Shown here: piece by piece, positions 7,368-50,900 of the stretch
Numbering within the stretch: position 1 is the stretch's first letter
How the letters are laid out: each line of letters starts with the position of its first letter
Assembly (NCBI GenBank): GCA_030068145.1
Contig: JAPJBO010000810.1
Location: 40,047-104,046 of the forward strand
From: Diplonema papillatum
Lineage: Eukaryota > Euglenozoa > Diplonemea > Diplonemida > Diplonemidae
Direction: 5' to 3'
Length of the DNA stretch: 64,000 nucleotides
Notes under the pieces: model-generated
What the model was told of the DNA's origin: nothing
What the model saw: only the letters and a program-made list of their open reading frames with translations
Databases searched by the model: none
Position numbers and translations under genes: made by a program

Positions 7368-7384
7368 CTCGGGCCCGGCATCCG

Positions 7385-7910
7385 CCGCCGAAGCCCCGCA
7401 CCGGACGACAGCACAGATGGATCATCCCGCAGCAGCGGGTCACAAAAGTATCTCTGGTCCCGCAGCATCAGTGGACCACGTGGTATCTGATCCTTGTTGG
7501 CGGTGCACCACTAAGGTATTTGTTCCGGACGACAGCGCAGATTGTGGGTCACCAACGTATCTCTGGTCCTGCAGCCACCAGTGGACCACCAGGTATCTGA
7601 TCCTTGTTGGCGGTGCACCACTAAGGTATTTGATCCGGACGACAGCGCAGATTGATCATCCCGCAGCAGTGGGTCACCAAAGTATCTCTGGTCCGTGGAA
7701 CACCAGGTATCTGGTCCTTGTCGGCAGTGCACCGCTGAGGTATCTGATCATCCTGTAGCAGTTGGCCACAAGCCATCGGATACACGTGCACGGCACGGCC
7801 TCGGCGCCGGTGATCCAGCCACCGGTGGACCGTGAAGTATCTGATCCTTGTTGGCAGAGCACCGCTGAGGTATCTAATCATCCTGTAGCAGTCGGCCACA
7901 AGCTGTCGGA
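7385..7910. repeat. Degenerate tandem repeat array downstream of NSRP1-like gene
   Basis: A roughly 115-bp unit recurs at least four times. Marker words are TATCTGATCCTTGTTGGC, GGACGACAGCGCAGATTG, ATCCCGCAGCAG, GTATCTCTGGTCC and CTGTAGCAGT. Later copies are truncated and rearranged. Confidence 0.8.
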
Positions 7911-26900: not shown

Positions 26901-29900
26901 TGCAAACCCGTGCACTAAATAGAGCCGGTCAAAACCGAAAATCAAGAATCCAACAAAAATTGGTGGCGGTCACAAACAGTCCCGGACATGGCTAGCCATA
27001 ACCCATAACGAAAGCGTGCACTAAATATACAACCCGTAACCACATAGCCCTTTCTTGCTCCAAGAGAAGCCATTCATGAACGGTCACACGGAGACCCTAA
27101 AACCCCGGAATTTCAAGCGAACTTTAACTCTAAAAATCAGCTTCCCAATCGATCGGACGCCTACGAAGACTTCAAGCAAAACGAAGGCGCGGAGCTGGTG
27201 AAGAACATGAAAAACTCCTTGACCCGCTTGAAGGAGCTGAAGCAGGAGGGCAGCGACCTCACTTCGGCGGCCGCAAACTTGAAAGCCGAGATCGAAATAC
27301 TCAAGAAAACGCTCGAAAAAGCAGAAGTCGAGGCTGGCGACGACGACAATGCCGACGAGGAGACATTCGCAGGCTACGAGGAACTCAAGCGGAAGCGGCT
27401 AGCCTTCCGAGACATCCACGAGAACGTATGCCGGTTGCGGCTGGAGAGAGAGTCAGCGCAGAAACTCTTGAATCAAGCCCGCCAGCAACTCATCACGAAC
27501 TTTGAGAACTGGTACGAGAAGACGTACAACGCCAGCGCGGGTAATGGAAAGTCTGCAGCTCCTGACGAAGAGGTTTGCCGCTTGCACTTTTTAGCCACAG
27601 CAAGCCGAACTTTAACTGCTGCCTCCAGTCTCGCTGGGCGCCGGTCTTTACCGGCGCACATGTACTTGGTCTTCGGTCTATTTTTCACCGTAAAATTCCC
27701 TGACTTGGGTCCCCAACTTGGGTCCCAAACTTGCCCAAAATCTTTACCGTTATGAGCATCAGCCCCTGACCATAGCTGTCAGCCAGTGGCTCCTGGGGCC
27801 GGGTTTGATTCCCGGGTCTATTTTTCACGGATCTCTTCATCGAAGCTGATCGCGAGCAAAACTTTGTCGACAAAGGTCTGCTACGCGGACCAGCAACAGA
27901 ATGCCACCAGCCAGGGGATCGATACCGTCCGTGTTCAATGCACACCTGATCAGGCTGGTGGTTTCTACGCCCGGTGCCCTGCAAATTGTAAAAACTACTG
28001 ACCACGCACATAGTTTTCTGTCTCCGGGTCTATTTTTCACGGATCTCTTCATCGGAGCTGTTCGCAAGCAAAAATTCGTCGGAAAAGGTCTGCTATGTGG
28101 ACCAGCGGGAAAATGTCGCCAACCAGGGGATCGAAACCCGTTCTTCCCAGTGCACACCGGTGGTTTCCACGCCCGGTGCCCTGCATCTTGCACGGACCCA
28201 CGAACAATGCACATACTTTTTCGTTTCCGGGTCTATTTTTCACAGTTCTTTTCATCGGAGCTGATTGCGAGCAAAAATTCGTCGAAAAAGGTCAGCGGGA
28301 AAAAGTTACCAACCAGGGGGTCGATACCCGTCTTGCTCGATGCCCACCTGGTGGTTTCCACACCCGGTGCCCTGCATCATGCACGGACCCACGAACCACG
28401 CGCATACTTTTTCGTTTTCGGGTCTATTTTTCACGGATCTCTTCATTGCAGCTGATCGCGAGCTAAAATTCGTCGAAAAAGGCCTGCCGCGTGGTCCGGC
28501 GGGAAAATGCCACCACCCAGGGGATCGATTCCCGTCCTTCTCAATCCACACGTGGCGGCTTCCACGCCCGGCGCCCTGCAACTTGTAAAGGGCCCCGAAC
28601 CACGCACATAGTTTTTCGTCTCCGGGTCTATTTTTCACGGATCTCTTCATCGGAGCTGAAAACGAGCAAAAACTCGTCGAAAAAGGTTTGCTACATGGAC
28701 CAGCGGGAAAATGTCACCAGCCAGGAAATCGATACCCTGCACACGCCGTGACACGGTCTCGAGAGGGCGGGGGGGGGTACCAGGGGGGGGTTGGGCGACT
28801 CTGAAAACGAGAACGAGGCAGAAAATCTGGTTTCGTCGCAATTTTTTTTGCATTTTTGGGCACCTACCTGAGGCATTCTGACGAAAAAGACGTGAACATA
28901 TTTTCAGTCGTCTGGGCAGCTATTTTAGCTATTTTAGCTATAAATAGCTAAAAATAGCTACTGGGGGGGGGGTCAGCGCTCTTGTTAAGGATCAGCCACT
29001 TTGGCCGGATGGCCGGATAAACCAGACCCCCCCCCCCCCCCCCTCTACAGTGCAGTTGCCTTGGAGGCTGGGTGGTCAAATTCTCTAAGGTGAAATGGTC
29101 AAAATTCCCTGCCAAAAGTGGGCCCACAAAAATTTTCCAAAGTGTGGTATTTGGGGTATTTGGGGCAAAAAAAAATTTTTTTTTTCTGACCGCCCACCGT
29201 GGTGACCACCTTAGAGTGTGACAGGTAGCGTCTCCCCCCTCCACAGTGAAAATAGCCTGAGGGGGGGGGGGGGTCAGCCGGCTGATGGATGGATAGATGG
29301 TTCTTAACAAGATGCCTGGGGGGGGTCAAATCCCATTCACGAGCATTCTCAAAACTTTTTGCCCATTCACGAGCATGCTTGAACTTTTCGCCCATTCACG
29401 AGCATCCTCGAAGTTTTTGCCCATTCACGAGCATGTTTTAACTTTTCGCCCATTCACGAGCACTGCCATTCCCATTCACGAGCATGATTTTTTTTTTAGC
29501 CCATTCACGAGCATTCCTCAATAGTTTTAGCCCATTCACGAGCATAGCCTAACTTTTTGCCCATTCACGAGCATGCTTCAAACTTTTTGCCCATTCACGA
29601 GCATGCTCAAAACTTTTTGCCCATTCACGAGCATGCTCAAAACTTTTTGCCCATTCACGAGCATGCTCAAAACTTTTTGCCCTTCACGCCAATCGTCGGC
29701 ATGGGGGCGATGGCCCATCGGATGGGACATCTTGTTATCCCCAGATTTATCGGTTTATCCGTCTGCCGCAAGCGCTCTCTGTCAGAAAGAGAAAGCAGTA
29801 AGTTCGTCGGACTGCGGTCGCCATGCTGTTGGAAACTCTGATACTGAGCAACCGCCCCAGAAAAAGTGAACCTTAGGCCCAAGTTAGGGCACTCTCCTGC

Positions 29901-32900
29901 CAAGAGTCTTAGCAGGAGTCTTGCCAGGTGTTGGTGGAAACACCCACGCCACGGCATGCACCAGTTGGGTATTTCCGACCCGATGCACGAGAAATCAGGG
30001 CTCGGAGTCCGAACTGCGCTCGAACCTTTCGCTTGTTGTGTGAAGGTTTTCCCTTCAGTTTTTGCTCGGAGTTGCATTGTACTCACTGTGTCATTTAGTC
30101 CCGACAACAACGTGTTTCTAACAGGCAAGCTGCACTTCAATTGTAATACACTAGTGTTTTTTGGGGGGGTCTGAGACCCCCCAATTCCACGCCGTGTATC
30201 GTTATATTACAATTGAACTCAATTGTAATTGGCCCCCCCCTGTAGCTAAGTCTCACACTGACGAAGGTAGCCACAAGGTTTGTGGCTACTTTGTGGCTCC
30301 CAATTAGCCACTAGTGGCTATCTTGTGGCTGACAGCTATGCGCATACCTGAATTATGCACGAATCTGTGTTCACAATACCTTTAGAAAACCGTTTACCCG
30401 TAGTCTGCGGTGTCAGTGACCCAGTGCGCAGCCAGGATACCGAGCCGGGACGCAGCAGCCAACCACAATGCTGGCACCTTGTTCGAGGAACGGATCCGAC
30501 GGAAATCGGAATCGGAAATGGCAAACCCAAAAATGGCTGGGATTTTTTGGATGTATGGGTGGTGAGTTCGAATCCCACCCTGGGCAATTTTCAATGTTCG
30601 AGAATGGGCGGGGTAAACGGGCTAATTCCCATTATAGCACATTTTCTTAACTTTGTGCCCATTATAGAACTGTTCTTAACTTTGTGCCCATTATAGAACT
30701 ATTTTTAACTTTTTGCCCATTCTCGATAACTTTGTGCCCATTATAGAACATTCGCTAACTTTTTGCCCATTATAGAACATTCGCTAAAAATCGTCACTTC
30801 GGGGACTCGATACCACAACCTTCAGGTTTGGTCCAAGTTTTGGGTCAGGTTTTGGGCTCAAGTTTCGGTCCACGCGGGCCCGGTCTGAAGTCTGGGCCTA
30901 ATTACTGGTAGCGCCAGGCCAGTAACCTGGTAACCAGACTGGTCCTGGACCTGGATTATGTCATCATGCCACGGAAAAGCCTCGAACAGACCGGGCGGTC
31001 GGCTCAGAGTCAGACTGCTGTCAGGATGCGTGCAGTCTGGTAGTGTTAGTCTGGCCTCTGGCAGCTGACGCTTGAAGTTGAACTGGTTGTCGTCTATTGA
31101 TGACCAACCCAAGTTTGGGGGACCCAAGTTTGGGACCCAAGTTTGGAACCCAAGTTCGGGACCCAAGTTTGGAACCCAAGTTTGGAACCCAAGTTTGGGA
31201 CCCAAGTTTGGGACCCAAGTTTGGGACCCAAGTTTGGGACCCAAGTTTGGGACCCAAGTTTGGAACGGACCCAAGTTTGGGACCCAAGTTTGGGACCCAA
31301 GTTTGGGACCCAAGTCTGGAACCCAAGTTTTGGGCACAACCTCAGGAAACCGTACTGTTTTGGTATTTCACCCCATTCTTGAATGGATTTCATAGGCTCG
31401 TCACTTCCTGCTGCCGTTGTCAACAGCGTTGATGCCCAGTTGCAGAACCGACTCCTCCGCGTTGGTTGCAAGCATCTTCCTGCGAAAAACAGCTGATTCG
31501 AAGACTTGGCAACTCCTTCAGCCGACTTTCACCCAGCTTTTCTCGGACCCAAAACTTGGAGTCCAAGTTGGACCCAAAGTCGCGGCCAAGATTTGGACTA
31601 AATCCAACCATTGGACCCAAGTTTGGGAACAATGCTGGTCGCGACGGTCGAGACGTGAAAGCAAACATCACGTACGAAGAGTAATAAACCCGTGTGCAGG
31701 TCTCTTCTGCCACGCCGGCGATGCAGAGTACCGCCTGCGTGCTAACACAAACTTGAACTTACTCTTGCCACGAGTCTTGGCAAACTTGGGTCCAAAGTTG
31801 GGAAAAGTAGGCACAAACTCAGGAAACCGTACTGTTCAAGTTTTGGACCAGATTTAGACCAAAACCCGTCCTGACCCGAGTTGGGAACCAAAACGTAGAC
31901 CCAAGATTTTGGCAGCCTGGAGGTTGGGGTATCGAGTCCTAGAAGTGACGATTTAGCAATGTTCTATAATGGGCAAAAAGTTAGCGGAATGTTCTATAAT
32001 GGGCACAAAGTTAGCGGAATGTTCTATAATGGGCACACAGTTATCGAGAATGGGCAAAAAGTTAAAAACAGTTCTATAATGGGCACAAAGTTAGCGACTG
32101 TTCTATAATGGGCAAAAAGTTAAAAACAGTTCTATAACGGGAATTAGCCCGGGGTAAACACCATTCTCACACTTTTTCAACAATTCTTACCATTCTCACA
32201 CGGTTGCAACAAATGCTACCATTCTCACACAGTCGCAACAAATGCTACCATTCTCACACAGTCGCAACAAATGCTACCATTCTCACACAGTCGCAACAAA
32301 TGCTACCATTCTCACACAGTCCAAACAATTTCTTACCATTCTCACACAGTCGCAACAAATGCTACCATTCTCACACAGTCGCAAAAAATGCTACCATTCT
32401 CACACAGTCGCAACAAATGCTACCATTCTCACACAGTCGCGTGTACACACAAAATGATTAGAAAGCTACAGGGCAGTGTGAGGTTTAGCTACAAAAAGCT
32501 ACAGCTAGCTACAGCGTAGCTTTTTGTAGCCTTTTGTAGCTCTTTTTTTTGGGGGGGGTTCCCAGCCCATTCAGGATACTTTTCGCCCCAATTTCTTCAG
32601 TTTCGAAGTTTTCTGGGCATATTTTGGGTTTTCCTGGCACCTGCTTTGCCCTGTGCACTGGGGCCCGCTGCAGTCTACCGAGCCTCAGTGAGGGTCGGTC
32701 ACTCGGTGAGGCTGCAACCACGCAGGCGGCGAGGGTGATGCAGCAGGGAAGTCTGGGGCGCCAGAGTCACGACGGTTCCATGAAGCGAAGCCAATCAGGA
32801 CCCCAACCGCAGAGCGAAGAGCGCTCGAGACAGTGTGGGCCCGGAGCCCCGGCTGGAGCTCTCATTGCACTCCAGAGCCCCGGGCTGAGTCAGGTATTTG

Positions 32901-35900
32901 GCCGGTACCACCACTTACCAACACTTGGGCAGATGCTGCAGTGTGGACTGCCGAAGCCACCGTTTAGACCAGTCACTCCCCGTCGGACGGGCCCCCCAAA
33001 AAGCCCCTCGGGCCTTCTGGGGATTCGCCACAAGAACGCACTCACCCGCCCTTTGGAAGATAGTGGAGACCATTATCAAAGACCGCCCCACGTTCCTCCA
33101 TCGATGGACTCCTCAGTCCGGAGGCTTCCGGTAGGGAGAGGCACAGAGAAGCAGCTCTGCACCGTGACGGCGGCAATCAACCGGAAAAAAGGCCGATTCA
33201 CATGCTGCTCGCCTTCGACCTGGCGCGCGCTTTCGACGGGCAGCACGCTCCCGGCAGGCGGGACCCCCGGGAAGAGCACGCCGCTCAGCACGAATCAACC
33301 CCGACTACTTTACGCGTATTCCCCGGGTGAGAATGCCCAAACTTGACACATTGCAATTCAACTTTGGCCCTTTGGAAAGTTTGGGGTCTTATAATCTTAG
33401 AATTTGAGTGGCGTCGGTTCAAACCCGCCTCTCTGGTCTTTGGTATTTGTTGCGACTGTGTGAGAATGGGGACAATTCCCATTATAGTACACTTCCTTAT
33501 GTTTGTGCCCATTCTCGAACACTATTTAACTTTTTGCCCATTCTCGAACACTCGCTAACTTTTTGCCCATTCTCGAACACTTTTTAACTTTTTGCCCATT
33601 CTCGGTAACTTTGTGCCCATTCTCGAACACTATTTAACTTTTTGCCCATTCTCGAACATTCCAGTTTTTGTGGTGAAAATGTCACTTCCCCGAGACATTT
33701 GCCTCAAGTTTCACCGCGAGAACAGCTGCGTTCACTGATTCGAAGACGGTACCCTTGCTAACTTCAGGCCGCAGCCTCTTCGGCATCTAAACTCGGGTTC
33801 TTGGTTGCTTCAAGCTTCTACACGTGACGGTGGTGTGCGAGCTACAAACCCGGCACAGACTTCACTGAGTTTGCTCGTCTTGCTTGCAAATTGCGCGGCG
33901 GCCATTGAGTGACCTTAGTTCACTGACCTACACCAGGAGAAGCAGCTTGCAACTTTGCAGCAAAGTGATTCAAAAAATTTGACCGAAATTTTTTGGCTCA
34001 AAAATTTTCGGTCAATTTTTGGGTCAAATTTTTTGGGTCAAAAATTTAGGACAAAATTTTTGGGTCAAAAATTTTGGGTCAAAAAAGTTAGGACAAATTT
34101 TTTTCAGAGTTGAAGTGGCGGTTACACTTGGCACATGGCTGCATGATGGCAGGAGAAATGGCTCCTGCCATGCGCCCTGGCGGCTCGCCGGCAATTCCAG
34201 TCTCTCTCTCAGCCTGCCAGCCTGCGGCAGGGAGGACAAGATCCAGTCACCATCCGCCAGCTCCTGATTATTTTCAGACGACTGGCACTTTTTCTTTGCA
34301 GCTTCTACTGTAAGAGTAGCATCACTCAAATCTTGATTGGCTGCGGCGTTACTTACCGCTCTGAGTCTCTCCCGCTCCTCCTCTGGAGTCATTCGTGACG
34401 TCGCGCCCGTCGCTGGTTACTACTCGTGGTAAAACGTAAAACAGTGGCTCTGATTCTGAAGAGGTTTCGGCACAGAATTAGGAAGCGCTACAAGTAGAAC
34501 GGGCTGGTCACTCGCGCATACCTGAATTATGCACGAATCTGTGTTTAGAAAACCGTTTACCCGTAGTCTGCGGTGTCAACACTGTGCTGGCACCTTGTTC
34601 GAGGAACGGATCCAAATGGCGAACCCAAAAATGGCTGGGATTTTTTGGATGTATGGGTGGTGAGTTCGAATCCCACCCTGGGCAAATTTCAATGTTCGAG
34701 AATGGGCAAAAAGTTAGGCGACTGTTCGAGAATGGGCAAAAAGTTAAAAAGTGTTCGAGAATGGGCAAAAAGTTAGCGAGTGTTCGAGAATGGGCAAAAA
34801 GTTAAATTGTGTTCGAGAATGGGAATTAGCCCGTGAGAATGGTAGCATTTGTTGCGACTGTGTGAGAATGGTAACATTTGTTGGAGCTTGTGTGAGAATG
34901 GTAAAATTTGTTGCGACCGTGTGAGAATGGTAAGGTTTGTTGAAACTTGTGTGAGAATGGTAAAAATTTGTTTTTTTGTGTGAGAATGGTATTTGCCCCC
35001 AAATACCATTCTCACACAAAAAAACAAATTTTTACCATTCTCACACAAGTTTCAACAAACCTTACCATTCTCACACGGTCGCAACAAATTTTACCATTCT
35101 CACACAAGCTCCAACAAATGTTACCATTCTCACACAGTCGCAACAAATGCTACCATTCTCACACAGTCGCAACAAATACCAAAGACCAGAGAGGCGGGTT
35201 TGAACCGACGCCACTCAAATTCTAAGATTATAAGACCCCAAACTTTCCAAAGGGCCAAAGTTGAATTGCAATGTGTCAAGTTTGGGCATTCACCCGGGGA
35301 CTACGCGTAAAGTAGTCGGGGTTGATTCGTGCTGAGCGGCGTGCTCTTCCCGGGAGTCCCGCCTGCCGGGAGCGTGCTGCCGAAAGCGCGCGCCAGGTCG
35401 AAGGCGAGCAGCATGTGAATAACAACCGGAAAAAAAGACCTTTTTTCCGGATTGCCGCCGTCACGGTGTAGAGCTGCTTCTCTGTGCCTCTCCCTACCGG
35501 AAGCCTCCGGACTGAGGAGTCCATCGATGGAGGAACGTGGGGCGGTCTTTGATAATGGTCTCCACTATCTTCCAAAGTGCGGGTGCGTTCTTGTGGCGAA
35601 TCCCCAGGAGGCCCCGAGCAGTGTGGGGGCTGGCACCACAGCACCACCGGAGAGCACCGGCCGGTGCTCTCCGGTGCTCTCCGGTGCTGGGGCTGGTATT
35701 TGACTTTACCCACCCCGTAGCAGACCTTTTTCAACGAGTTTTTGCTCGCGAGCAGCTCCGATGAAGAGAGCCGTGAGAAATGGATCCGGCGACCAATAAG
35801 TATGTGCGCGTTTCTTGGGTTCGTACGAGGTAAAGGGCACCGGGTTACGGCGGATACGGAACCCACCAGTTTTGCAATGCTAAATCCCCTGTTTTGTGAC

Positions 35901-38900
35901 ATTATTTTGATGGCCCGTGTAGCAGACCTTTCTCGTCGACTTTATGCTCACGTTCAGCTCCGATGAGGAGATTTGTGCAAAATGGACCCAGGGAACCCAC
36001 AGTATTTGCGTGGTTCGTTGAGGCTTTCCGACGTTCAGGGCACTAGGCATGAAAACTACACCGCGGAATGCAAAACTTTGCATCACAGAATCACGCCGCG
36101 GTGCCCGGTGCTGGTGCTCAGCACTGGGCACCGGCCAGCACCGGTGCCAGCCCCCACACTGCCCCGAGGGGCGTTTTGGGGGGCCCCGTCCGACGGGAGT
36201 GACTGGTCTAAACGGTGGCTTCGGCAGTCCACACTGCAGCATCTGCCCAAGTGTTGGTAAGTGGTGGTACCGGCCAAATGCCCGGGGCTCTGGAGTGCAA
36301 TGAGAGCTCCAGCCGGGGCTCCGGGCCCACACTGTCTCGAGCGCTCTTCGCTCTGCGGTTGGGGTCCTGATTGGCTTCGCTTCATGAAACCGTCGTGACT
36401 CTGGCGCCCCAGGCTTCCCTGCTGCATCACCCTCGCCGCCTGCGTGGTTGCAGCCTCACCGACCCTCGGTAGGCTGCAGCGGGAGGCGAAGTACTTTCTA
36501 TTACTATCCCCAAACTTTTATACCATTCTATTACTATCGCAAACTTTTATACCATTCTATTACTATCCCCAAACTTTTATACCATTCTATTACTATCCCC
36601 AAACTTTTATACCATTCTATTACTATCCCCAAGTTTTTATACCATTCTATTACTATCCCCAAACTTTTCTATCCCCCCCCCAAATTTTTGTACCATTTGG
36701 TTGGTGTCCCAGCACTTGGCGTCAGTACCGAAAACGTTGAAGCGTTGTCCCACCGCACGAAAAGAGGCCCCTTTTTGCTTTGCCGCAAGTTTCTAAGCAA
36801 AGACGAAATCTCAAACTGCCAGCACGGAGTCTAAGTGGTTTCGGTCTCTCGTTTGCGGAGTCGACGACCCCCATTCTGTTTTGCCCCGACTCCACCCTGT
36901 GGAGGGAGCTTCCGTGGGAATCCCACTCCAATCCTGTAGTTCCGCAGTTTGACGCTAATCAGGCTCAGATACGAGTCAGTACGCGTGCACGCAGCACGGT
37001 GCTGGATTCTGGAGTCTACGCTATATCGCCGAACAAAAGCCACTACGACTGTGCCCGGCCCAGGGTTCCACCGAAGATTTGGTCGACCGTTCAGCCACTC
37101 CGACGACTCAGACTGGTCGCCGGCCGCTGTGAAATCCACAAATAACGCTAGAAATCATCGGTCAGTTTCTTTGGCCCACCGCAGTCGCGCTCTGCTGCAC
37201 AACCCTGCCGCCCGGGCCTGCGAGTCAGCACAAACCCTTCCATGTGGGTTACCGGCTTTGGTAATTCCATTTGAGAGTTCTCGCAGAACAGGTGTCATCA
37301 GGAATGCCAGGATGTCAACTGAGTCGGCAACATCAACTCGCAGAGCTTGGCTACGTTTCGTTTACGGGCAACACGTAGTACATGCTGCGGGAATGGTTCC
37401 CAGGCTGTCAATGGGACCCAGCCCTGGAAAGCCCGCGGCTCTCGGGGCTGGGGATGGAAAGTGGAAAAACAGTAGAAGTGTCGGGCACCCTGGACTTGGT
37501 GACTGTTCCTAACACTGTACTAACGTAATTCAGTGACCGACTCACTGGGTGACACCAAAATGGGTTCAAAGTTTGGGAATGGGGTTCAGCTTTGGGACCG
37601 TAATGGGTTCAAGTTTTGACCATACTACAAGCCGGTCTCCTTCATGTTTGGATACCGCGTAATGGTCCACACAATGTGACACATTTACATCATGAGGCAA
37701 CTTCACTTCCAAGTCGAATAGAGGCAGACTCGCACAAGGCTTTTGTGACAAGCATGTACTTGTTTTTGTACCGAGGGCTGCCAGCAATGGGTGAATTCAG
37801 TCTCCAGAGTTGCAATAGTAATAGAATGGTATAAAAGTTTGGGGGTAGTAATAGAATGGTATAAAAGTTTGGGGGTAGTAATAGAATGGAATAAAAGTTT
37901 GGGGGTAGTAATAGAATGGTATAAAAGTTTGGGGGTAGTAATAGAATGGAATAAAAGTTTGGGGGTAGTAATAGAATGGTATAAAAGTTTGGGGGTAGTA
38001 ATAGAATGGTATAAAAGTTTGAAATAGTAATAGAATGGGCAAAAAAAGTTCCAAACGTCATATTTAGGACTTCACCTCCTGCAGCGGGCCCGGCAGTGAG
38101 GCCTCAGTGCACAGGGCAAAGCAGGTGCCAGGAAAAACCAAAATATGCCCAGAAAACTTCGAAACTGAAGAAATTGGGGCGAAAAGTATCCTGAATGGGC
38201 TGGGAACCCCCCCCCAAAAAAAAAGAGCTACAAAAGGCTACAAAAAGCTACGCTGTAGCTAGCTGTAGCTTTTTGTAGCTAAACCTCACACTGCCCTGTA
38301 GCTTTCTAATCATTTTGTGTACACGCGACTGTGTGAGAATGGTAGCATTTGTTGCGACTGTGTGAGAATGGTAAGAAATTGTTTGGACTGTGTGAGAATG
38401 GTAGCATTTGTTGCGACTGTGTGAGCATAGCTGTCAGCCACAAGGTAGCCACTAGTGGCTAATTGGGAGCCACAAAGTAGCCACAAACCTTGTGGCTACC
38501 TTTGTGGCTAATTATGCAAAATTTTGATACCCAGGAAAACCACGTGAAACTAGTTTTTTCGGCCAGAAAATGCATCTAAAACACAATTTCTGATGATTTT
38601 GACAGGTTTTTGGGCCCGAATTTGGGTAAGCTGCTTCGCCCTGGCCTCGTATCCTCAGCCGCGAGTCAGCGGCAACGTTGGCAACTCTATCAGTAACTTC
38701 GTACAACACTGCAAGTAATTCAAGGCTTGAAAAGTTCAGAAAACAACAACAAGCTGCTGCATCTTGCCAACACGGTCGCAGCACCAATGCTAATGCCATA
38801 GTTCTGGTACATTTTGAGTCAGAGAGTGCACCGGAGGAAGACGAACCCGTCGAAAGCGATGTTGATATTTCAGACCGCAGAGTCAGTACGAAGCTGCCAA

Positions 38901-41900
38901 TGCTTCTGTTGCCAAGTTTTGGAGCAGGCAAGGAATCAATTTAGTTCAAAGGGTCGCTTGTCCGCAAACCCGTTTCAGTTGCGGGGTGCATAGTCTCCAA
39001 CTTTTCACCCAAACCACGCCGGTGACAGCCGTACTAGTAACGGCGATGCACTGATATTCTAAGATACCCAAGGTTAAACAGGACAGCAACGACCCAGCAA
39101 ACGGAGCATTTCACAATTACGACAGCTCTTCTACTCGGTACCCCGTCACCAGCGAGTTTGCTTGCTTGCTTGCAAAGTGCACAGAGCTCGCAACTTCACA
39201 CGGCAGCAGGCATAGTTACTATGATAGTACAGCAGGAGCACACTGACAGTGTGACTGACTCCCTGTAACAGCTGTCACTGAGTGGCACTGTTACACTTGT
39301 TGCAATCAGCGTCCGAAAGAGTTCAAGGAGGAGCCAAAGATCCGAGAAAAGTAGCGGGGGCAATCTCTCACACGTCTTGGAAATTCCTCGCAGGCTCCTG
39401 TAGCACAGGCCCAGCCAAGGCACAAGGGAAAGTTGAAAGTGACTGACTTGCGACAATACCAGTCCAGCAGGGCAGCACGGGCCGCAGGCCCGCGGCAGGG
39501 AGCTCAAGCTCAGTCACCATCCGCCAGCTCCGCCACGTTTTCTTTGCAGCTTTCTGGCAGCATTCAAATCTGTTTGGCTGCGGCGGTACTTGCCGCTCTC
39601 TCCCACTCCTCCTCTGGGGTCATTCAAGAGGCTCGGAGAGCGCCGGTCGCTGGTTGAGAGGCCCTCTCAGAGGGTTTCAGGACAGAAATGGTAAGCGCTT
39701 TGCAAGTAGAATGGGTCTGTCACTCTCGCCAACCTGAATTATGCATGATTCTGTGTGCATAATGCCTACTACTACTTTAGTAGCAGTAGCGGTTTAGTAA
39801 ACCGTTTACCAATGGTACCCCAGGGTGCGCAACCAGGATGCCGAGCCCAGGGTGTAGCAACTAACCCGTATTCTGGCCCAAAACCCTGTCAAAATCGTCA
39901 GAAAACGTGTTTCAGATGCATTTTCTGGCCGAAAAAGTTAGTTCCACGCGGTTTTCCGTGATACCAAAATTTTGCATAATTAGCCACAAAGGTAGCCACA
40001 AGGTTTGTGGCTACTTTGTGGCTAAATGGGGCCACAATGTGGCAACCTTGTGGCTGACAGCTATGGACTACTGTGAGAATGGTACGAAATTGTTTGGACT
40101 GTGTGAGAATGGTAGCATTTGTTGCAACTGTGTGAGAATGGTATCATTTGTTGCGACTGTGTGAGAATGGTAGCATTTGTTGCGACTGTGTGAGAATGGT
40201 AGCATTTGTTGCAACCGTGTGAGAATGGTAAGAATTGTTGAAAAAGTGTGAGAATGGTGTTTACCCCGAATTAGCCCACCCATGTACCTGTTAACAAAAA
40301 ACACCTCCCGCGGGGCTCGAACCCGCGACCACAAGGTTAAGGGCCTTGCGCTCTACCGACTGAGCTAGGGAGGCGTCTGCGGCGCGAAAAAAAAAAGCGC
40401 TTTTTTTTCATCAGCGCCCCATGGTTTTATCGGGGGTAGGTTCCTACATTACTCGCGGTCGGCCGAGCCAGGGTCATTTTTCGTTTCGTATTTTTTCGTA
40501 TTTACGAAATACGAACGAAATACGAAACGTCGTGTTTTCGTACAAATCCATGACTCGCCGATTCGCAGCCGAAGGCCTCTTCGGGGGCATCTCACAGCTT
40601 GCAAGCACCGAACTGATGTGCATGCCCAACTGATGCTGACATACGTCAGCAGTGTCAATGGCATGCGGCTAGAATGTGGCAGACAGGCTCAGGCTGTGCG
40701 TTCTCGAAGGGGAAACCAACATGATTATTCAGGTTCACCGCATGTGAGAGAAAATGTTGATAACGAAACGGTTTGCCAGCACAGACAATGTTGGAATGGA
40801 TTTCAAACGCAAAAAAAGGAGAAAACGTGGAGACTTCAGATTCCTTGAAAGGCGAGGTCGACCCCATCTACAGCAGTCTAGATTCTAGATTACTGAACAG
40901 AGTCTTTGTCCTCAAAATCCGCGAACTGGAGGGGGAGAGGCTGAAAACTCAAATTTCCGGTACTTGTGCTTGCGAGGCCTCAACATCCAGGCTTTCATGA
41001 GCTGCTTCCTCGCTGGGCTCTCGGGGCATAGCTGTCAGCCACAAGGTTGCCACATTGTGGCCCCATTTAGCCACAAAGTAGCCACAAACCTTGTGGCTAC
41101 CTTTGTGGCTAATTATGCAAAATTTTGGTATCACGGAAAACCGCGTGGAACTAACTTTTTCGGCCAGAAAATGCATCTGAAACACGTTTTCTGACGATTT
41201 TGACAGGGTTTTGGGCCAGAATACGGGTTAGTTGCTACACCCTGGGCTCGGCATCCTGGTTGCGCACCCTGGGGTACCATTGGTAAACGGTTTACTAAAC
41301 CGCTACTGCTACTAAAGTAGTAGTAGGCATTATGCACACAGAATCATGCATAATTCAGGTTGGCGAGAGTGACAGACCCATTCTACTTGCAAAGCGCTTA
41401 CCATTTCTGTCCTGAAACCCTCTGAGAGGGCCTCTCAACCAGCGACCGGCGCTCTCCGAGCCTCTTGAATGACCCCAGAGGAGGAGTGGGAGAGAGCGGC
41501 AAGTACCGCCGCAGCCAAACAGATTTGAATGCTGCCAGAAAGCTGCAAAGAAAACGTGGCAGCCGTCTGATAATAGTCAGGAGCTGGCGGATGGTGACTG
41601 AGCTTGAGCTCCCTGCCGCGGGCCTGCGGCCCGTGCTGCCCTGCTGGACTGGTATTGTCGCAAGTCAGTCACTTTCAACTTTCCCTTGTGCCTTGGCTGG
41701 GCCTGTGCTACAGGAGCCTGCGAGGAATTTCCAAGACGTGTGAGAGATTGCCCCCGCTACTTTTCTCGGATCTTTGGCTCCTCCTTGAACTCTTTCGGAC
41801 GCTGATTGCAACAAGTGTAACAGTGCCACTCAGTGACAGCTGTTACAGGGAGTCAGTCACACTGTCAGTGTGCTCCTGCTGTACTATCATAGTAACTATG

Positions 41901-44900
41901 CCTGCTGCCGTGTGAAGTTGCGAGCTCTGTGCACTTTGCAAGCAAGCAAGCAAACTCGCTGGTGACGGGGTACCGAGTAGAAGAGTTGTCGTAATTGTGA
42001 AATGCTCCGTTTGCTGGGTCGTTGCTGTCCTGTTTAACCTTGGGTACTTAGAATATCAGTGCATCGTCGTTACTAGTACGGCTGTCACCGGCGTGGTTTG
42101 GGTCCTTTAGCAGGAAAAGTTGGAGACTATGCACCCCGCAACTGAAACGGGTTTGCGGACAATCGACCCTTTGAACTAAATTGATTCCTTGCCTGCTCCA
42201 AAACTTGGCAACAGAAGCATTGGCAGCTTCGTACTGACTCTGCGGTCTGAAATATCAACATCGCTTTCGACGGGTTCGTCTTCCTCCGGTGCACTCTCTG
42301 ACTCAAAATGTACCAGAACTATGGCATTAGCATTGGTGCTGCGACCGTGTTGGCAAGATGCAGCAGCTTGTTGTTGTTTTCTGAACTTTTCAAGCCTTGA
42401 ATTACTCGCAGTGTTGTACGAAGTTACTGATAGAGTTGCCAACGTTGCCGCTGACTCGCGGCTGAGGATACGAGGCCAGGGCGAAGCAGCTTACCCAAAT
42501 TCGGGCCCAAAAACCTGTCAAAATCATCAGAAATTGTGTTTTAGATGCATTTTCTGGCCGAAAAAACTAGTTTCACGTGGTTTTCCTGGGTATCAAAATT
42601 TTGCATAATTAGCCACAAAGGTAGCCACAAGGTTTGTGGCTACTTTGTGGCTCCCAATTAGCCACTAGTGGCTACCTTGTGGCTGACAGCTATGCTCGGG
42701 GGCTTTCTGGTTGGGGCACGGCAGCTTCCAGTGCCTGTGCAGCACGCTCCGCACGGCGTTCAGCCTTGGCTTTTTTCCCTGTGTCGCGATACAGGTCTTC
42801 ATGCAGCAGCCTATGATTCAGGGCAACACTCATGGAAGCGTTTAAATTTTCAGTGGAGAGTGGCATTCACGAGCATTCTCGAAACTTTTTGCCCATTCAC
42901 GAGCATGCTTGAACTTTTCGCCCATTCACGAGCATTCTCGAAGTTTTTGCCCATTCACGAGCATGTTTTAACTTTTCGCCCATTCACGAGCACTGCCATT
43001 CCCATTCACGAGCATGATTTTTTTTTTAGCCCATTCACGAGCATTCCTCAATAGTTTTAGCCCATTCACGAGCATAGCCTAACTTTTTGCCCATTCACGA
43101 GCATGCTTCAAACTTTTTGCCCATTCACGAGCATGCTCAAAACTTTTTGCCCATTCACGAGCATGCTCAAAACTTTTTGCCCATTCACGAGCATGCTCAA
43201 AACTTTTTGCCCATTCACGAGCATGCTCAAAACTTTTTGCCCTTCACGAGTATTCTTATTTTTTTTGCCCAATCACGAGAATTCAAGCATAACTTGCCAT
43301 AAGTCAAATTGGCTCAAGCTACCGAGTGCACATTACACGTGTAGGCGAGTTCAAACTTTCAGCCGTTCAGCTTAGAGCAGGATCAGTTCAATTCTGTCGC
43401 TCCCATTCGGTGATACGGATCTCTCAACAGCTCAGTCGTGCATGTCATGACTGTCCAGTTCTGTTTTGTGTTTCCGACGATCCCGTTTTTCTCAATTACG
43501 TTTCCTTCTTCAAGTGTTTCCTAATAGTTTTGCGTCGCCGACCATGATGAAAGTCGGCCCGTTTAAAACGGCGTTTTGGGTATTACCGTACTTTGGGTAT
43601 TGACACCGGCCTGCTCTGACAGATGTATTTCGACCTTTGAGTTTTTTTCTTAGCCACATGCAATGTGTGAGGAAACTGAACTGCCCAAGTAGGACCTTCT
43701 GATCATGATCATTTGCCAAATTTACCACCTGAAACCACGTCCAGGATTTGGCTCAGGGTAGTGCGGTCAAAAAAAAGTGACGTGGCTCTTACTATTTACG
43801 CACAGCCGTTTGTTTGTGCGTATGTGTATCACCTGTATGGTAATTTCCACAGTACGCTGCCAACCGTCACTTTTTGATAATGACAACCGCGGTTGTTACC
43901 ATAAAAAAACTTTCCCTTTCTACGTTTTCCTACTCTCGCGGTGTACGGTTTCCTTGTTTGGTCATTTGAAAAATCGAATCTCGAGTCCAAGAACTACTGC
44001 AACTCACTGACTTAGAGCAAGTTAGACACATCCTGAACAGTACCCCTTGCAGAACCAGGATTGAACCAGGATTGTGTTGTCGTTGACTGAGAATCAAGGG
44101 AGACAAGCTTTGAGATTTCGTCGCGAGGTGACCCCTCGCCCGCTAAAATGCCCCCTCTCGGGCTCACCCCCTCGCCATTTTTTTTCGCGTCAAAGTTCCT
44201 GTTCTGGCCCTCGGCTCCCTTTGTAAAAAGGTTGAGCTCTGGGCCGGTGCGGGAGCTTCCCGGCGCGGAGAAGAATGGAGATGGCCATGGTCACCTTTAC
44301 CACTTTTTCTTCATCGGGTTTGTTAGGCTGCCGCATATTAGGCATGAGCCTGTGCGGTCGCAAAGCCGGGAACTTTGCCATTATAGTCCACGATTCTTAC
44401 TGGGGGGGGTCGAATACAAGAGGTACCTCTTCTATTCGGCGTGCCGATCCTGCAATTTTCCCGAAAAAGAAATGGAAAAAAGTACCGCAAACCCGGAAAC
44501 CGCGGGAACTCCCTTCTTCTTGAAAGACGCACGTAATTTGTGGTCCCCGGGTCTATTTTTCACGGTTCTCTTCATCGGAGCTGAACGCGAGCACAAATTC
44601 GCCGGGCAAAAAGGTCTGCAACATGCTCGTGAATGGGCAAATATTTTGAAGCATGCTCGTGAATGGGCAAAAAGTTTTGAGCATGCTCGTGAATGGGCAA
44701 AAAGTTAGGCCATGCTCGTGAATGGGCGAAAAGTTAGGCCATGCTCGTGAATGGGCGAAAAGTATGGCCATGCTCGTGATTGGGCAAAAAGTTTAAGGTG
44801 CTCGTGAATGGGCAAAAAGTTTGAAACATGCTCGTGAATGGGCAAAAAGTTAAGCCATGCTCGTGAATGGGCAAAAAGTTAAAGATTGCTCGTGAATGGG

Positions 44901-47900
44901 AATTGACCCTGGAGAGTGTGGATCTCTTTTTGTTTAAAAGGACCGACAACTTCTTGAAGTGTCGTTCTACAGAAGCTTCGCTAGCTGTCGCTTTGCCCAA
45001 AGTGCAAGCGAAGAGAGTTAGCAGTTCACTCTCTTCTGCTGTAGCAAGGGCATGATTTCTCCAAAAAAACTTGTACCCGTGTTTGATAACTTCCCCGCTC
45101 GGGCCTCGGGCTCGGTTTCTGAACTCGTTGTACACGACTTTCAGTTGAACAAGAGTTTGTTCAAGGGTGCTTTGATCGCGAAACGAATGGGCGCAAGAAC
45201 CGGCACAGCATATTCCACTGTCGGGCTTTCTGCTCATTCTGGACCAGCATCTGGTCGACGTCGGGGTGCAGAGACTCCAGAACTTGCATGGCTGGAAACG
45301 ACAAGTTCTTTTCTATGCGCCAGGTCCACGTTATATAGGGTGATTCCCCATTATGCTATTAAAGTTTGCTAATTTCCCCATTATGCTATTAAAGTGGTGC
45401 TAATTTCCCCATTATGCTATTAAAGCTGCTAATTTCCCCATTATGCTATTAAAGCGGTGCTAATTTCCCCATTATGCCATTAAAGTTTGCTAATTTCCCC
45501 ATTATGCCATTAAAACATTTTTTTTGGGTTTCGGCGGGTTTCCACCCGTTTTCCACAGTTTCCCGCGGCCTCTACCACGAACATGTCCTACCGTTTCGGG
45601 AATGGTTTCCCGCAAACCCTTGGATTTGTGTACGTGTGTGAGGATACGGCTAATAGCTTGCTGGTCATGAAATCTTCAGTACACTCCTTCAGGAGTCCTT
45701 GGTTGGTCCAAGACATGGCAGCAACCCGAAGTGCCCGCCCTGGCACTTCGGGTTTGACCCGGCGCCCATCATGGCCACCGCAGCGGCATTCCACTGTATC
45801 TGAATCCACAACTGTGACAACACAAACTGGGCTCATGAAATGATGAAAAGCCTCATCCAGGGCTGGTCGCCACACGGTTGCCACGTGTGGCCCACATTTG
45901 CCACACGAAAATGAAAAAGTCGTGTGGCGGATGTGGCGAATTTTTCCGGTTTTTTTTCCCTCCTGAAAACCGGCCGCAATTGCCGTATAACCACGATATC
46001 CCCCTTTTTTTTGTGTTTTTTTGGAGTTTTTTGGAATTTTTACGACAGGTACCCGATTCCAGCCAGTACAAGCCTCTGTACTGTAGGAACCAGTTCTGCC
46101 AGCTTCTGGTGAATGTCGCCGTGAAGCAACTCACCAACTCGCACAGAAAACGGGTGACCACCCAGGTTTTCGTGTCGTTATGATGAAAAGTATGATGTGT
46201 CGCATGCATCGAGTGCAGGAACACGGTGTCTCGCTGACTCTGAGTCTGAGGGACGTGTCGCTAAGGACCGTCGGAGTCAGGGCAATACGTTAGTCCATCA
46301 GCGATACGTCAGCTACAGCGGGGCACAGCGCACGTGCATCGTTTACGTCACGCCGGTCACGCACAACTTCGGGTCGAAGCTCGACCTATGCTCGAAGAGG
46401 ACATTGGAGTTGCGCAAGCCCGCGAGAGATACCGCATTGACCCATTGATTGGGTCCACAACGAACACGCAAGGCTGTGGTGCGGCCTTATTGAATAAGTT
46501 ATTCAACAACCGGGAAAGGTAAGCCTGCGGCTGCCCCGTCTACTTTGTTGAAAACTGGATGCACAACCGTGGTCGTGACCGACGGCCAGTGGGCGTCATC
46601 CCCTCGCGTGCTGGCCCCTGGCAGCTGGATGCTGTCCTCTCTTGCGGTGGGTGTCCACCGAGGGGTGGTTCCTTGCCCATGGGAAGGCCGTGCTTCGCGC
46701 AGGAACCCCGGCTGAGGGGGTCGTCCCTCGCGCGGTCGGTGCTGGCGCGGTGAGAGTCGTCTCCTCGCCGCCGCCGCGGCAGGGGTGGTGCCCCCTCCGG
46801 CAGGGTTGTCATCCCTTCGAGTCCGACGCCGTTACCACACCAGGCACGTAGACACACGGAGCTTGCACAAAGTTAGTGACAAACCCAACTGTTCCTGCAC
46901 TTTGATTTGCCGTACGAACTCAAACTTGCACGTGGTTTCGGCCCCGCTGCAGCTGCACACATCGCAGAAGCAGCATCAACGCCGACTGACAACGGCACTG
47001 AGAAACGTCCCCCAGACTCAGAGTGTCGTCCCTGTACCTCGAGTAAGTTGACTCCGCCAGGCTGGATGGCGTCCTGTAACTGGACGTTCCTGCACTCGAT
47101 GCATAATTTTCATCCCAACGACACCAAAACCTGCGTTTTCTGTGCGAGTGAGTGAGTTGCTTCACGACGACATTCACCAGATATTAGCAGAACTGGTTAC
47201 TGCAGTACAGGGCCACACAGCAGCTTGTACTGGCTGGGATCGGGTACCTGTCGTAAAAATCCCAAAAAACTCCAAAAAAAAACAACAAAAGGGGGATATG
47301 GTGGTTATACGGCAATTGCGGCCGGTTTTCAGCAGGAAAAAAAAAACCGAAACAATTCGCCACATCCGCCACACGACTTTTTCATTTTCGTGTGGCAAAT
47401 GTGGGCCACACGTGGCAACCGTGTGGCGACCAGCCCAGTGGCTCATCTCATGTATCAAATTTCCAAATGAGTATCACAAAGGTCCACGCTGCAGTGCAGC
47501 CTGCAGTATGGTTCCCGAGTTTTTCCGCCAGAAGCTGTTGCTTTGCTACAGTGCCGCTGAGACAGTGAGAGCTTAGCTTCGGTGCAGCTGTCTTTAGTCT
47601 GCTCCAACTTAGTCTGGTGTCAGACTACAGACAGTCAGATCACCAGCTGAGCTGTCAGTGCGAACCCTGCTGACCCCTTTTGGTGAACATGCTGATTGTT
47701 TCCCGCGGACCAGCACAGTGCCAAGACGCTGTGACTTGCAAAGTTAACTGTTCGGAAATAAGCCGTTTTCTCGAAACAATCTACTGAAAGTAGGCTAAGT
47801 AGCGCCGTCGAATCGATTTCATCAAACGACTGCTCGCGTTAGGCACGGTTAGAAAGTGCATTGTCATTATCTTCCTCGAAAATGGACAAAACTACTCACA

Positions 47901-50900
47901 AAAAGTCTTGACCAGACTACCTGTGCTGTACTACGACCGCCAGTAGCCCAGTCGCAGAATGGGGAAATTAGCAAACTTTAATGGCATAATGGGGAAATTA
48001 GCGCCACTTTAATAGCATAATGGGGAAATTAGCACCACTTTACTGGGGGGGGTCGAATACAAGAGGTACCTCTTCTATTCGGCGTGCCGATCCTGCAATT
48101 TTCCCGAAAAAGAAATGGAAAAAAGTACCGCAAACCCGGAAACCGCGGGAACTCCCTTCTTCTTGAAAGACGCACATAATTTGTGGTCCCCGGGTCTATT
48201 TTGCCTCTTGTATTCAAGGTACCTCTTCTATTCAAGGTAGTTCGACCATAGCATAATGGGGAAATTAGCAACTTTAATAGCATAATGGGGAAATTAGCAA
48301 ACTTTAATAGCATAATGGGGAATGTCCCCCCCAAAGTGGAAAAACTATCGGTTCCCATTTGACAATGTCTGGGCTGTCCAATCACGCTCCAGCTGCCCTG
48401 CGGAAGTGAAAGGCCAACGAACCACAAAACAATCATTCGTTTTCGGGTCTATTTTCCACGGTTCTCTTCATCGGAGCAAGAGACGAGCAAAAAAACGGCG
48501 AAAAAGGTCACCAGCGGGAGAATGACACCAACCAGGGAATCGATTCGCGTCCACCCCATTGCAACCCTGGCGTGGAAACCCACTGGTCTGCATGTTGTAA
48601 AGATTCACGAACCACGCACATACTATCTGATCCCCAGGTCCATTTTTCATGGATCTCTTCATCGGAGCTGATCACGAGCAAAAACTCGCCGAAAAAGGTC
48701 TGCTACGTGGACCAGCGAAGAAATGTCACCAGCCAGGGGATCGACACCCGTCCTTGCCAATGCGCACCTGGTGGTTTCCACGCCCGGCGTTCTGCATCTG
48801 ATAAGACCCACAAGCCACGCACGTACTTTGTGGTCCCCGGGTCTGTATTTCACCGTTCTCTTCACCGGAGCTGAGTACGAGCAAAATTTCGCCGGAAAAT
48901 ATCTGCAACGTGGACCAGCGAAGGGATGTCACCCACCAGGGGATGGATACCCGCCCTTCCCAATGCAAACCTGGTGGGTTCCACGCCCGGTGCCCTGCAT
49001 CTCATAAAGACCCACGATCCATGCACATAACTTTCGATCCCCGGGTTTATTTTTCACGAATCTCTCCATCGGAGCTGATCACGAGCAAAATTTCGTCGAA
49101 AAAGGTCTGCTGCATGGACCAGCGAAGAAATACCACCACCCGGGGGATCGATACCCGTCCTTCCCATCGAATCCCAATGCAAACCTGGTGGGTTCCACGC
49201 GGTGCCCTCCGCCTTGTAAGGACTCACGAACCATGACCTACTTTATGGTCTCCGGGTCCATATTTCACGGATCTCGTCATCGAAGCTGATCGCGAGCTAA
49301 AATTCATCGAAAAAGGTCTGCTACGTGGACCAGCGAAGAAATGTCATCAGCCAGGGGATCGATACCCGTCCTTTCCAATGCAAGCCTGATGGTTGCCACT
49401 CCCGGTTCCCTGCAACTTGCAAGGCCCCGCAAACCAGCAAACCACGCACATACTCTTAGCACCCCGAGTCAAATTTTCACGGATCTCTTCATCGGAGCTG
49501 ATCGCGAGCAAAAATTCGTCAAAAAAGGTCTGCTACGACAGCCTGTGTGGATCGGCAAAAAAATCCCAGCCAGTCTGAGCCACCAATGGCTGGTGGCTGC
49601 CACTGACTGCCCGTGGCTGTCACCTACACTGACCAGGGGTCGAAAAAAGCCGGAAAAAGGCATTTCGTCACGTTTCTTTGCATTTTTTCGCATTTTTTGG
49701 CCCTAAATACCGGTACATTTCCAGTTTCGGACACAATCCATTTTTTCCACTTTTTGAGCTACCACGAGCTACCGGGAGCTACCCGGTAGCTCTGGTAGCT
49801 CAGCTACCGGTAGCTGGTAGCCAGCCCCCACACTGTATTTAGCCCTAACGTTGAAACGACAGGATGAGCAGCTGGACGAAGGTGAGACGTTCGAAAAGAT
49901 GGAAATGGAGAAGCTTACACGAGAAGATCCCGATGCATTGGAATTCTACAAGTATGTTCGAGTCTTCGGTCAATTTCACATTTCACTCATTCCACGAAAA
50001 CGTGTCACAGATTTTGCTTCGTGCAAAATTCGGATTTTTTTTTTGGATGGAAAGAGCTATCCACCGTATTATTTCCACGGCGTGTATCGGCACCTTTCTG
50101 GAACTCGGTACAGCCAAAAATCTGACCCGAGATGGCACTTAGACGTTTTCCGGGCGATTTTCGACCCCCAAAAAAAACACCCTTCGGGGAATCGCCCGGA
50201 ACCATAAGTGAGTGTGCTACCCGTTAGACCACGGGCAAAAAAAAAAGCGGGGGGTTTTTTTTTGGAGCGCGGGACACTGTACAAGCCATGTTGGTACCTT
50301 AGCTTGCCCGAACTTTGCTTCACTAGAACTTAGCTTCGCCCGAACTTTGCTTCGCCAGAACTTTACTGTTTCCCGAACTTAGCTGCTGCCTCCAGTCTCG
50401 CCTCGCGCCGGCCTTTAGCCGAGCGCACGTACTTGCCATCTGTAGGTGCGGAAATTGTCGGTTTCAAGTCGAAATAATTTGCGTTTCTGACGATGGATCT
50501 CCAGGTAACCGAAGAACGATGTTACTGGGGGGGGTCGAATACAGGAGGTACCTTGAATAGAAGAGGTACCTTGAATACAAGAGGCATTTTGGAAATCTGG
50601 CAAGAAGTTGGATTTTTCTTGGTCCGCATAACAGACCTTTTTCGACGGTTTTCTGATCGTGATGAGCTCCGATGAAACGTGAAAAATAGACCCGGGGACC
50701 AAAAGTTATGTGCATGATTCGTGGGTCTTTACCAGATGCGGGGCACCGGGCGCGGAACCCACAGGGTTTCAATGGAAAGGACGGGAATCGACCCACTGGT
50801 CGGTGCATTTCTTTGCTGGCCCGTGTAGCAGACCTTTTTCGGCGAATTTGTGCTCGCGTTCAGCTCCGATGAAGAGAACGGTGAAAAATAGACCCGGGGG

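Follow-up and report, generated by a model that had tools for sequence, protein, structure and literature searches.

The stretch of DNA considered here (hereafter the window) is 64,000 nucleotides long, covers positions 40047-104046 of contig JAPJBO010000810.1 (C810) of Diplonema papillatum, a marine flagellate of a single cell, and holds a group of transposons, families A, B, C, D, F, and I, whose ends are built of arrays of a short repeated unit. That these repeat-array-ended transposons are real is confirmed. The six unit types, four tips and the arrays of the six families reported in an initial annotation all lie at the positions claimed, and the classification offered there, Mutator-type DNA transposons with foldback-like arrays, has held, as a Mutator-like element (MULE) transposase was found between such arrays and the elements are bounded by duplications of 9-10 bp. 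Genome-wide searches were carried out on the 271-Mb D. papillatum assembly, which comprises 2,910 contigs. The elements in the window and their target duplications are as follows.

29323..29690, plus strand: array of the C family, 12 units of CCCATTCACGAGC..., tip GGGTCAAATCCC.
30619..32150, plus strand: non-autonomous element A, tips GGGCTAATTCCC and GGGAATTAGCCC, arrays 30629-30790 and 31958-32141.
30610-30618 and 32151-32159: 9-bp target duplication of A, GGGGTAAAC, the latter copy being the tip of D.
32151..40267, plus strand: element D, tips GGGGTAAAC and GTTTACCCC, arrays 32160-32440 and, on the right, 38325-38425 plus 40072-40258.
33469..34832, plus strand: non-autonomous element B, within a D-type array, tips GGGACAATTCCC and GGGAATTAGCCC.
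33460-33468 and 34833-34841: 9-bp target duplication of B, GTGAGAATG.
36484..38078, plus strand: element F, arrays 36496-36668 and 37816-38038, outer tips AGGCGAAGT and AGGTGAAGT.
36474-36483 and 38079-38088: 10-bp target duplication of F, CTGCAGCGGG.
42863..44909, plus strand: non-autonomous element C, arrays 42864-43279 and 44622-44900, right tip GGGAATTGACCC, left tip eroded.
42854-42862 and 44910-44918: 9-bp target duplication of C, TGGAGAGTG.
45338..48328, plus strand: element I, tip GGGTGATTCCCC, arrays 45344-45514 and, on the right, 47954-48046 plus 48248-48322.

The units in the window are 29-31 bp long, open with [A/C]CCATT and are arranged as inverted arrays, so that the constant CCATT start previously noted is borne out. 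This opening is followed by a 7-nt core particular to the family, a variable spacer and a tail, and the unit is repeated about 4-14 times at each end of an element. The cores are ATAGAAC in A, CTCGAAC in B, CACGAGC in C, CTCACAC in D, CTATTAC in F and ATGCTAT in I. Four further array families, found from genome-wide matches or in fetched loci (L numbers below), have the cores ACAGCAC (K), ATAGTAC (M), ACGGTAT (P) and CCAGCAC (Q) and bring the related families in this genome to at least ten. The initial annotation erred over the tails, giving A, C, D, and I an AACTTT ending; it is A, B, C, and F that share AACTTT, D ending in AACAAATGCT and I in GCTAATTTC. It also described the outer tips as related, which is true of most families, where the tip consists of GGG, about 7 nt and CCATT, but not of F, whose outer tip is AGGYGAAGT.

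Target duplications were tabulated for 22 elements, all of them exact. The 9-bp length expected from the initial annotation was seen in 15, but the other seven are 10 bp long. A script tested 57 pairs of tips from the fetched loci and the window for exact matches of 8-11 bp and found them in 20, every one 9 or 10 bp, against three matches of 8 bp or more in 380 control cross pairs; the 37 unmatched pairs were left unsorted, many of which can only be tips of different elements. One script match, the 10-bp GAATTAGCCC of element D, was rejected as a by-product of the adjoining A end. The tally thus consists of 15 A, two B and two I elements from the script, to which were added a B copy at L018 and, by hand, the C and F elements of the window. 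The two I copies, both outside the window, carry 9-bp duplications; for the D and I copies of the window no duplication of their own was demonstrated. An automatic rule applied to the 30 fetched A loci recovered both tips in 15, of which 13 also showed an exact duplication. In the remaining two, the tip assigned to L002 belonged to a nested element, and L023 has no duplication. Overall, 15 distinct A copies carry a duplication and one, L023, has both tips without it.

Across the genome, arrays were sought as three CCCATT words spaced 22-26 nt apart, with the reversed pattern as control. Such triplets are abundant, at 2,177 + 2,217 matches (4,394) against 25 + 104 (129) for the control, an excess which shows that the arrays are more than chance. 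The equivalent ACCATT search was noisier (787 + 718 against 102 + 337), at least one of the listed matches being a simple repeat. Pairing was examined in the first 100 listed CCCATT places, which fall on contigs C2-C17 and make up 32 arrays. An inward-facing partner lay within 4 kb of 20 arrays and an outward-facing one of four, while 12 had no inward partner. The arrays of this sample are not found mainly outside paired inverted ends, the outcome that would have told against the initial annotation, yet over a third of this sample lack an inward partner. The elements have terminal inverted repeats (TIRs), as Mutator-like elements do, and these TIRs are built of tandem repeats, as in foldback-type elements.

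Autonomous members, which the initial annotation proposed should be sought between the arrays, were found: both A and P carry a MULE transposase flanked by inverted arrays. The A copy at L064 (2763-5991) has an open reading frame of 747 amino acids (aa), arrays on both sides and a 10-bp duplication, GCAGGATTAG; the P transposase at L067 (756 aa) is likewise flanked on both sides. For B (L065, a 754-aa open reading frame) the right array is whole and the left is broken by nested elements. For K (L066, 832 aa) the left array is whole, and the right consists of one unit and inner inverted sequence, followed by an A insertion; a second K left end lies at L070, and the gene in L026 likewise begins beside K array units, at its 5' end. 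The M transposase (L068, 773 aa) has a right array with several altered units, the fetched stretch excluding its left side. The genome holds 245 candidate places for the MULE domain PF10551, of which 150 were scored and listed, all over the cut-off and many outside this clade; neighbouring sequence was read for fourteen of these (L061-L075), and a fifteenth is reached by L026. A CCATT array was absent from L061-L063, L069 and L071-L075, the coverage of the last five being limited to 600-1,000 bases upstream. One of the loci outside this pattern, L063, encodes a distant MULE transposase (1197 aa, 25% identical to K) with an array of 29-bp units on its 3' side (7301-7468); its tail resembles AACTTTTT and it has a tip-like GGGATAATTAGC, but it lacks CCATT, and no inverted partner was found within the 9.9 kb fetched. 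The unit format may be older than CCATT.

The proteins themselves form a recognisable group. The B transposase encoded in the genome agrees with P0121, a Diplonema papillatum protein, at 735 of 736 residues, and its identity to the others falls from 73% (A) through 46% (K and P) to 40% (M). In our own reading of the alignment they share an N-terminal C-C-H-C pattern, a DDE part, a SWIM-like CxC...CxH pattern, a zinc knuckle and a Cys-rich end. Five clade members were compared with Pfam up to E 0.5. All five matched MULE (PF10551) and Transposase_mut, with a best E of 7.7e-13 for PF10551, the curated cut-off of which was exceeded by the A and B proteins and P0121; SWIM was matched by three (best E 0.0027), P0121 reaching 16.8 bits against a cut-off of 19.6. 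Searches of a protein collection with the A protein and with a profile of the five, each covering at most about 8,000 candidates, listed a single match, the Diplonema protein P0121. Solved structures searched with a profile yielded nothing stronger than weak matches, most of them to zinc knuckles (best E 0.016), and an AlphaFold model of P0121 alone was not used, its mean pLDDT (predicted local distance difference test) being 35.

Further transposases were assigned by proximity. Searching the genome for relatives of the K protein yielded 56 scored places, of which 40 were used, ten of a group about 25% identical and six short or weak places (C206, C1567, C718, C626, C128 and the second piece at C1848) being left out; these were grouped by identity, matched range and frame length and not by a tree. 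Array markers of C, D and Q, the three families tested, occur at 64, 92 and 81 places in the genome respectively, with none for each reversed control, and a marker was accepted in an enclosing orientation within 2.5 kb. The C marker lies 0.96-2.1 kb 3' of all five copies of a transposase of 929-933 aa, the D marker 0.40-0.47 kb 5' of five of the seven copies of another group (its three longest frames being 870-1003 aa), and the Q marker 5' of the single copy of a third, of 566 aa. Where tested with these markers, the match of transposase to array is family-specific. For I, the locus L072 (C206) is part of an I element, in which I interior sequence stands beside a transposase 31% identical to K with one stop; an I tip lies 3.4 kb beyond that transposase, and another is found 3' of a related fragment at C1567. 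Nine of the ten families thus have a transposase assigned, with differing strength, four of them (C, D, Q, and I) by coordinates, among which the link for I is made less surely than the other three. A 1229-aa transposase (C1218, C1987) was matched to no array family.

The variation within the unit is unevenly spread. With families assigned by array majority, the core had a mean within-family entropy of 0.30 bits, the spacer one of 0.91 and the tail one of 0.47, and the core lay below the spacer in all eight families with enough units; an earlier core value of 0.07 was dropped, as families had there been assigned by the core itself. Low variation of the core within families, together with its difference between them, is the appearance that would be expected of family-specific transposase-binding sites. 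Together with the family-specific match of transposase to array seen with the C, D and Q markers, it lends indirect support to the proposal of the initial annotation that each unit is such a site and the variable core a specificity code.

The comparison of A with B is the most instructive in this respect. At one end, the arrays of both have an outer unit whose core is a different one (ATAGCAC or ATAGTAC), and both include a 21-bp unit, CCATTCTCG[A/G]TAACTTTGTGC or a near copy, with the same CTCG start. One of three identical 14-nt tails is borne by five of the 13 distinct 29-nt units of A and by five of the 10 of B, no 15-nt tail being common to the two. Whether a copy is autonomous or not, its whole units carry ATAGAAC in family A and CTCGAAC in family B. 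Position 9 of the unit, in the core, and position 15, in the spacer, are fixed differences, and position 7, also in the core, is nearly so; this count left out units with K-, D- or M-like cores, 30-nt units and one 29-nt unit with an A core from a B-majority array. The shared blueprint and spacers suggest that the core was switched in place, and the pattern is as would be expected if each unit were bound and the preference of the enzyme had changed.

Taken together, these results make it probable (roughly 0.7) that the elements belong to a clade of MULE cut-and-paste transposons which has split into at least ten families and in which the arrays of units act as docking sites. Each unit would be a docking site for the N-terminal zinc finger of the transposase, and several copies at each end would assemble the enzyme on the right element. 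The core would confer family specificity, such that non-autonomous copies are moved by the enzyme of their own family, and the elements would often land in one another's arrays, building nests such as the one in the window. The binding of units would have precedents in the tandem-repeat sites of Galileo and the TIR motif of maize MURA, both of which are considered below.

As regards landing sites, four of the 15 A insertions with a duplication lie in the array or tip of another element (L001, L005, L021, and L026), as do two of three B insertions (L002 and the window, not L018); an A insertion at L002, placed by eye at the inner edge of a K array, stands outside the four. The arrays make up a fraction of a percent of the genome, as roughly estimated from the CCCATT and ACCATT counts. 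This may reflect a preference, or only survival in transposon nests. The excess is measured against the whole genome and may vanish against array-rich nests. A fuller account can be put forward tentatively, and as a whole we would sooner expect it to fail in some part than to hold: that the core is a code read by the N-terminal zinc finger, that families split through an in-place change of the core in all whole units at both ends together with the enzyme, the array itself not being rebuilt, that the outer and 21-bp units keep older cores as fossils, and that arrays are landing sites for sister elements.

A number of observations weigh against the docking of transposases on family-specific cores and should be considered with it. 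Tandem duplication and conversion keep the units of one array partly alike, for which binding is not needed. The fixed A/B difference at position 15 lies in the spacer, and position 14 differs in most units, so that the change takes in two bases beyond the core as well. Nor does core distance track transposase distance: the cores of A and M differ at one base, yet their transposases are only 39% identical. The divergence of A and B shows no positive selection confined to the N-terminal zinc finger; the overall ratio of nonsynonymous to synonymous divergence (dN/dS) is 0.13, but with synonymous sites saturated in the first 300 columns, and synonymous divergence lower toward the C-terminus, it is not read as selection on the DNA-binding domain. 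Among the assignments, the C, D and Q links are drawn from coordinates only; two markers stand in a compatible orientation near transposases of other families, one of D at 1.7 kb 5' of a B copy and one of Q at 1.3 kb 5' of a C-type copy, and three markers lie near transposases of other families in the wrong one. No transposase partner was found for F, and L073 shows no array upstream of a fragment which is 38% identical to K, so that the miss falls within or near the clade.

The strongest alternative, which we consider unlikely, accepts the same elements and takes the arrays as structural or passive, arising from TIR sequence by slippage and unequal exchange and homogenised family by family, with only the outer tip and perhaps one unit bound. 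Unit number does differ between copies and between ends, long one-way stretches of array occur at C2:209136-210455 and C48:235634-236209, and the arrays of Tetris are described as having turned into satellite DNA (PMC4079207). Homogenisation alone, however, should move core and spacer together, whereas the core is the less variable of the two within arrays, and the whole-unit cores of A and B differ while their blueprint is kept, including the 21-bp unit with the same CTCG start. It is also conceivable, at long odds, that what binds to the arrays is not the transposase but a protein of the host, such as a factor for replication, chromatin or transcription; the constant CCATT and the AACTTT common to several families would fit a single host factor, but this offers no account of a separate core for each family, paired with its own transposase where tested. 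That the arrays are ordinary minisatellites which lie near transposons by chance is scarcely credible and was rejected as the main account, for in spite of the unpartnered arrays in the sample and the solitary C array at 29323, inward pairs far outnumber outward ones, 22 elements bounded by array tips have exact duplications of 9-10 bp, and the arrays enclose or adjoin family-specific transposases.

The puzzle of why certain transposons end in strings of repeats is a long-standing one that dates back to Drosophila Foldback (FB), in which the TIR unit is 31 bp. The elements described here can be compared with several known systems. With the MULE superfamily, as typified by maize MuDR/Mu, the Diplonema elements share a PF10551 transposase, 9-10-bp duplications, long inverted ends and a SWIM-like pattern. 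Maize MURA binds a conserved TIR motif of ~32 bp (PMC3310237); unlike in MuDR/Mu, a unit on that scale is here repeated about 4-14 times per end with a core that differs among ten families. Closer still in form is Tm1, a Mutator/Foldback element of root-knot nematodes with composite TIRs containing short tandem motifs, mostly 9-bp duplications and some copies with a putative transposase, but its motif is ~14 bp, its 7-bp tips are asymmetric and a single element family is described (PMC3169594). Drosophila Tetris similarly has tandem-repeat TIRs and duplications of 8-10 bp, although no autonomous copy is reported to have been found (PMC4079207), in contrast to the nine Diplonema families with an assigned transposase. 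Galileo, of the P-element superfamily, has foldback-like TIRs made of tandem repeats which hold several transposase-binding sites, as established by footprinting and gel shift, with partial cross-binding between types (PMC3688188). Membership of the P superfamily was rejected, since neither a THAP domain nor a P-type transposase family was matched among the five clade members, which have the MULE domain instead. Rehavkus and Phantom resemble the present elements in their duplications (9 bp or 8-10 bp) and minisatellite-like parts, Rehavkus having a PHD finger and a minisatellite before its 3' TIR (PMC6446971); it too was rejected, as no PHD family was matched up to E 0.5 among the five.

Mutator-like elements with foldback-type ends were already known, as in Tm1 (PMC3169594), Tetris (PMC4079207) and the minisatellite MULE groups (PMC6446971). 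What appears to be new, as far as the open-access literature was searched (mostly as abstracts), is the host group and the coexistence within a single genome of ten sister families that share one unit format, most of them with an assigned transposase; such a number of sister families is the unusual trait within an otherwise known kind. Ten families with one format and different cores, nine of them with an assigned transposase, provide a natural set for the study of how enzymes recognise their own DNA ends, and open the old puzzle to direct testing, both of the core that each enzyme binds and of the way in which a family alters its address. For diplonemids, an earlier report only suggests MITE-like transposons as a source of introns (PMC12621601).

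Some details of the locus remain to be described. Elements in the window are nested: A occupies the tip of D, B lies within a D-type array, F sits inside D, and I contains another element. For the C array at 29323..29690, no right partner end was found beside it. Within element A there is a 13-bp ACCCAAGTTTGGG array (window 31107-31330), and the target duplication of an A copy at L029, AAGTTTGGG, fits insertion into a 13-bp array of the ACCCAAGTTTGGG type. The interior of D holds extra D-type arrays (34833-34995 and 35004-35177) placed tip to tip, and the opposite arm of D shows an empty F site, with a single copy of CTGCAGCGGG. Another insertion divides the right array of D between 38325-38425 and 40072-40258; it is the left of two inverted copies of an element at 38423-42697, with 100% complementarity between their arms over 584, 467 and 534 nt. 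A tRNA gene on the minus strand (40302-40374) adjoins the right end of D. The B copies at L065 and in the window (33469-34832) occupy the identical spot of the same D-type unit in opposite orientations, pointing either to independent insertion at one spot or to a flip via exchange between the B arrays. Element I is interrupted twice, by another element at about 45858-47441 and by a short repeat at 48040-48202. The former insert is repetitive, with inverted ends GGTCGCCACACGGTTGCC and matches mostly about 88-98% identical, and its empty site is visible in L072.

Outside the transposons, a kinesin-like gene contains, at window 24194-24534, four near-identical tandem copies of 85 bp encoding AYGQTGAGKTYTMTG, which resemble the tandem repeats of gene parts described for D. 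papillatum (PMC10161547). The end of the contig (window 63454-64000) is a satellite of CCCCCCCTGTTAAGTTAC.

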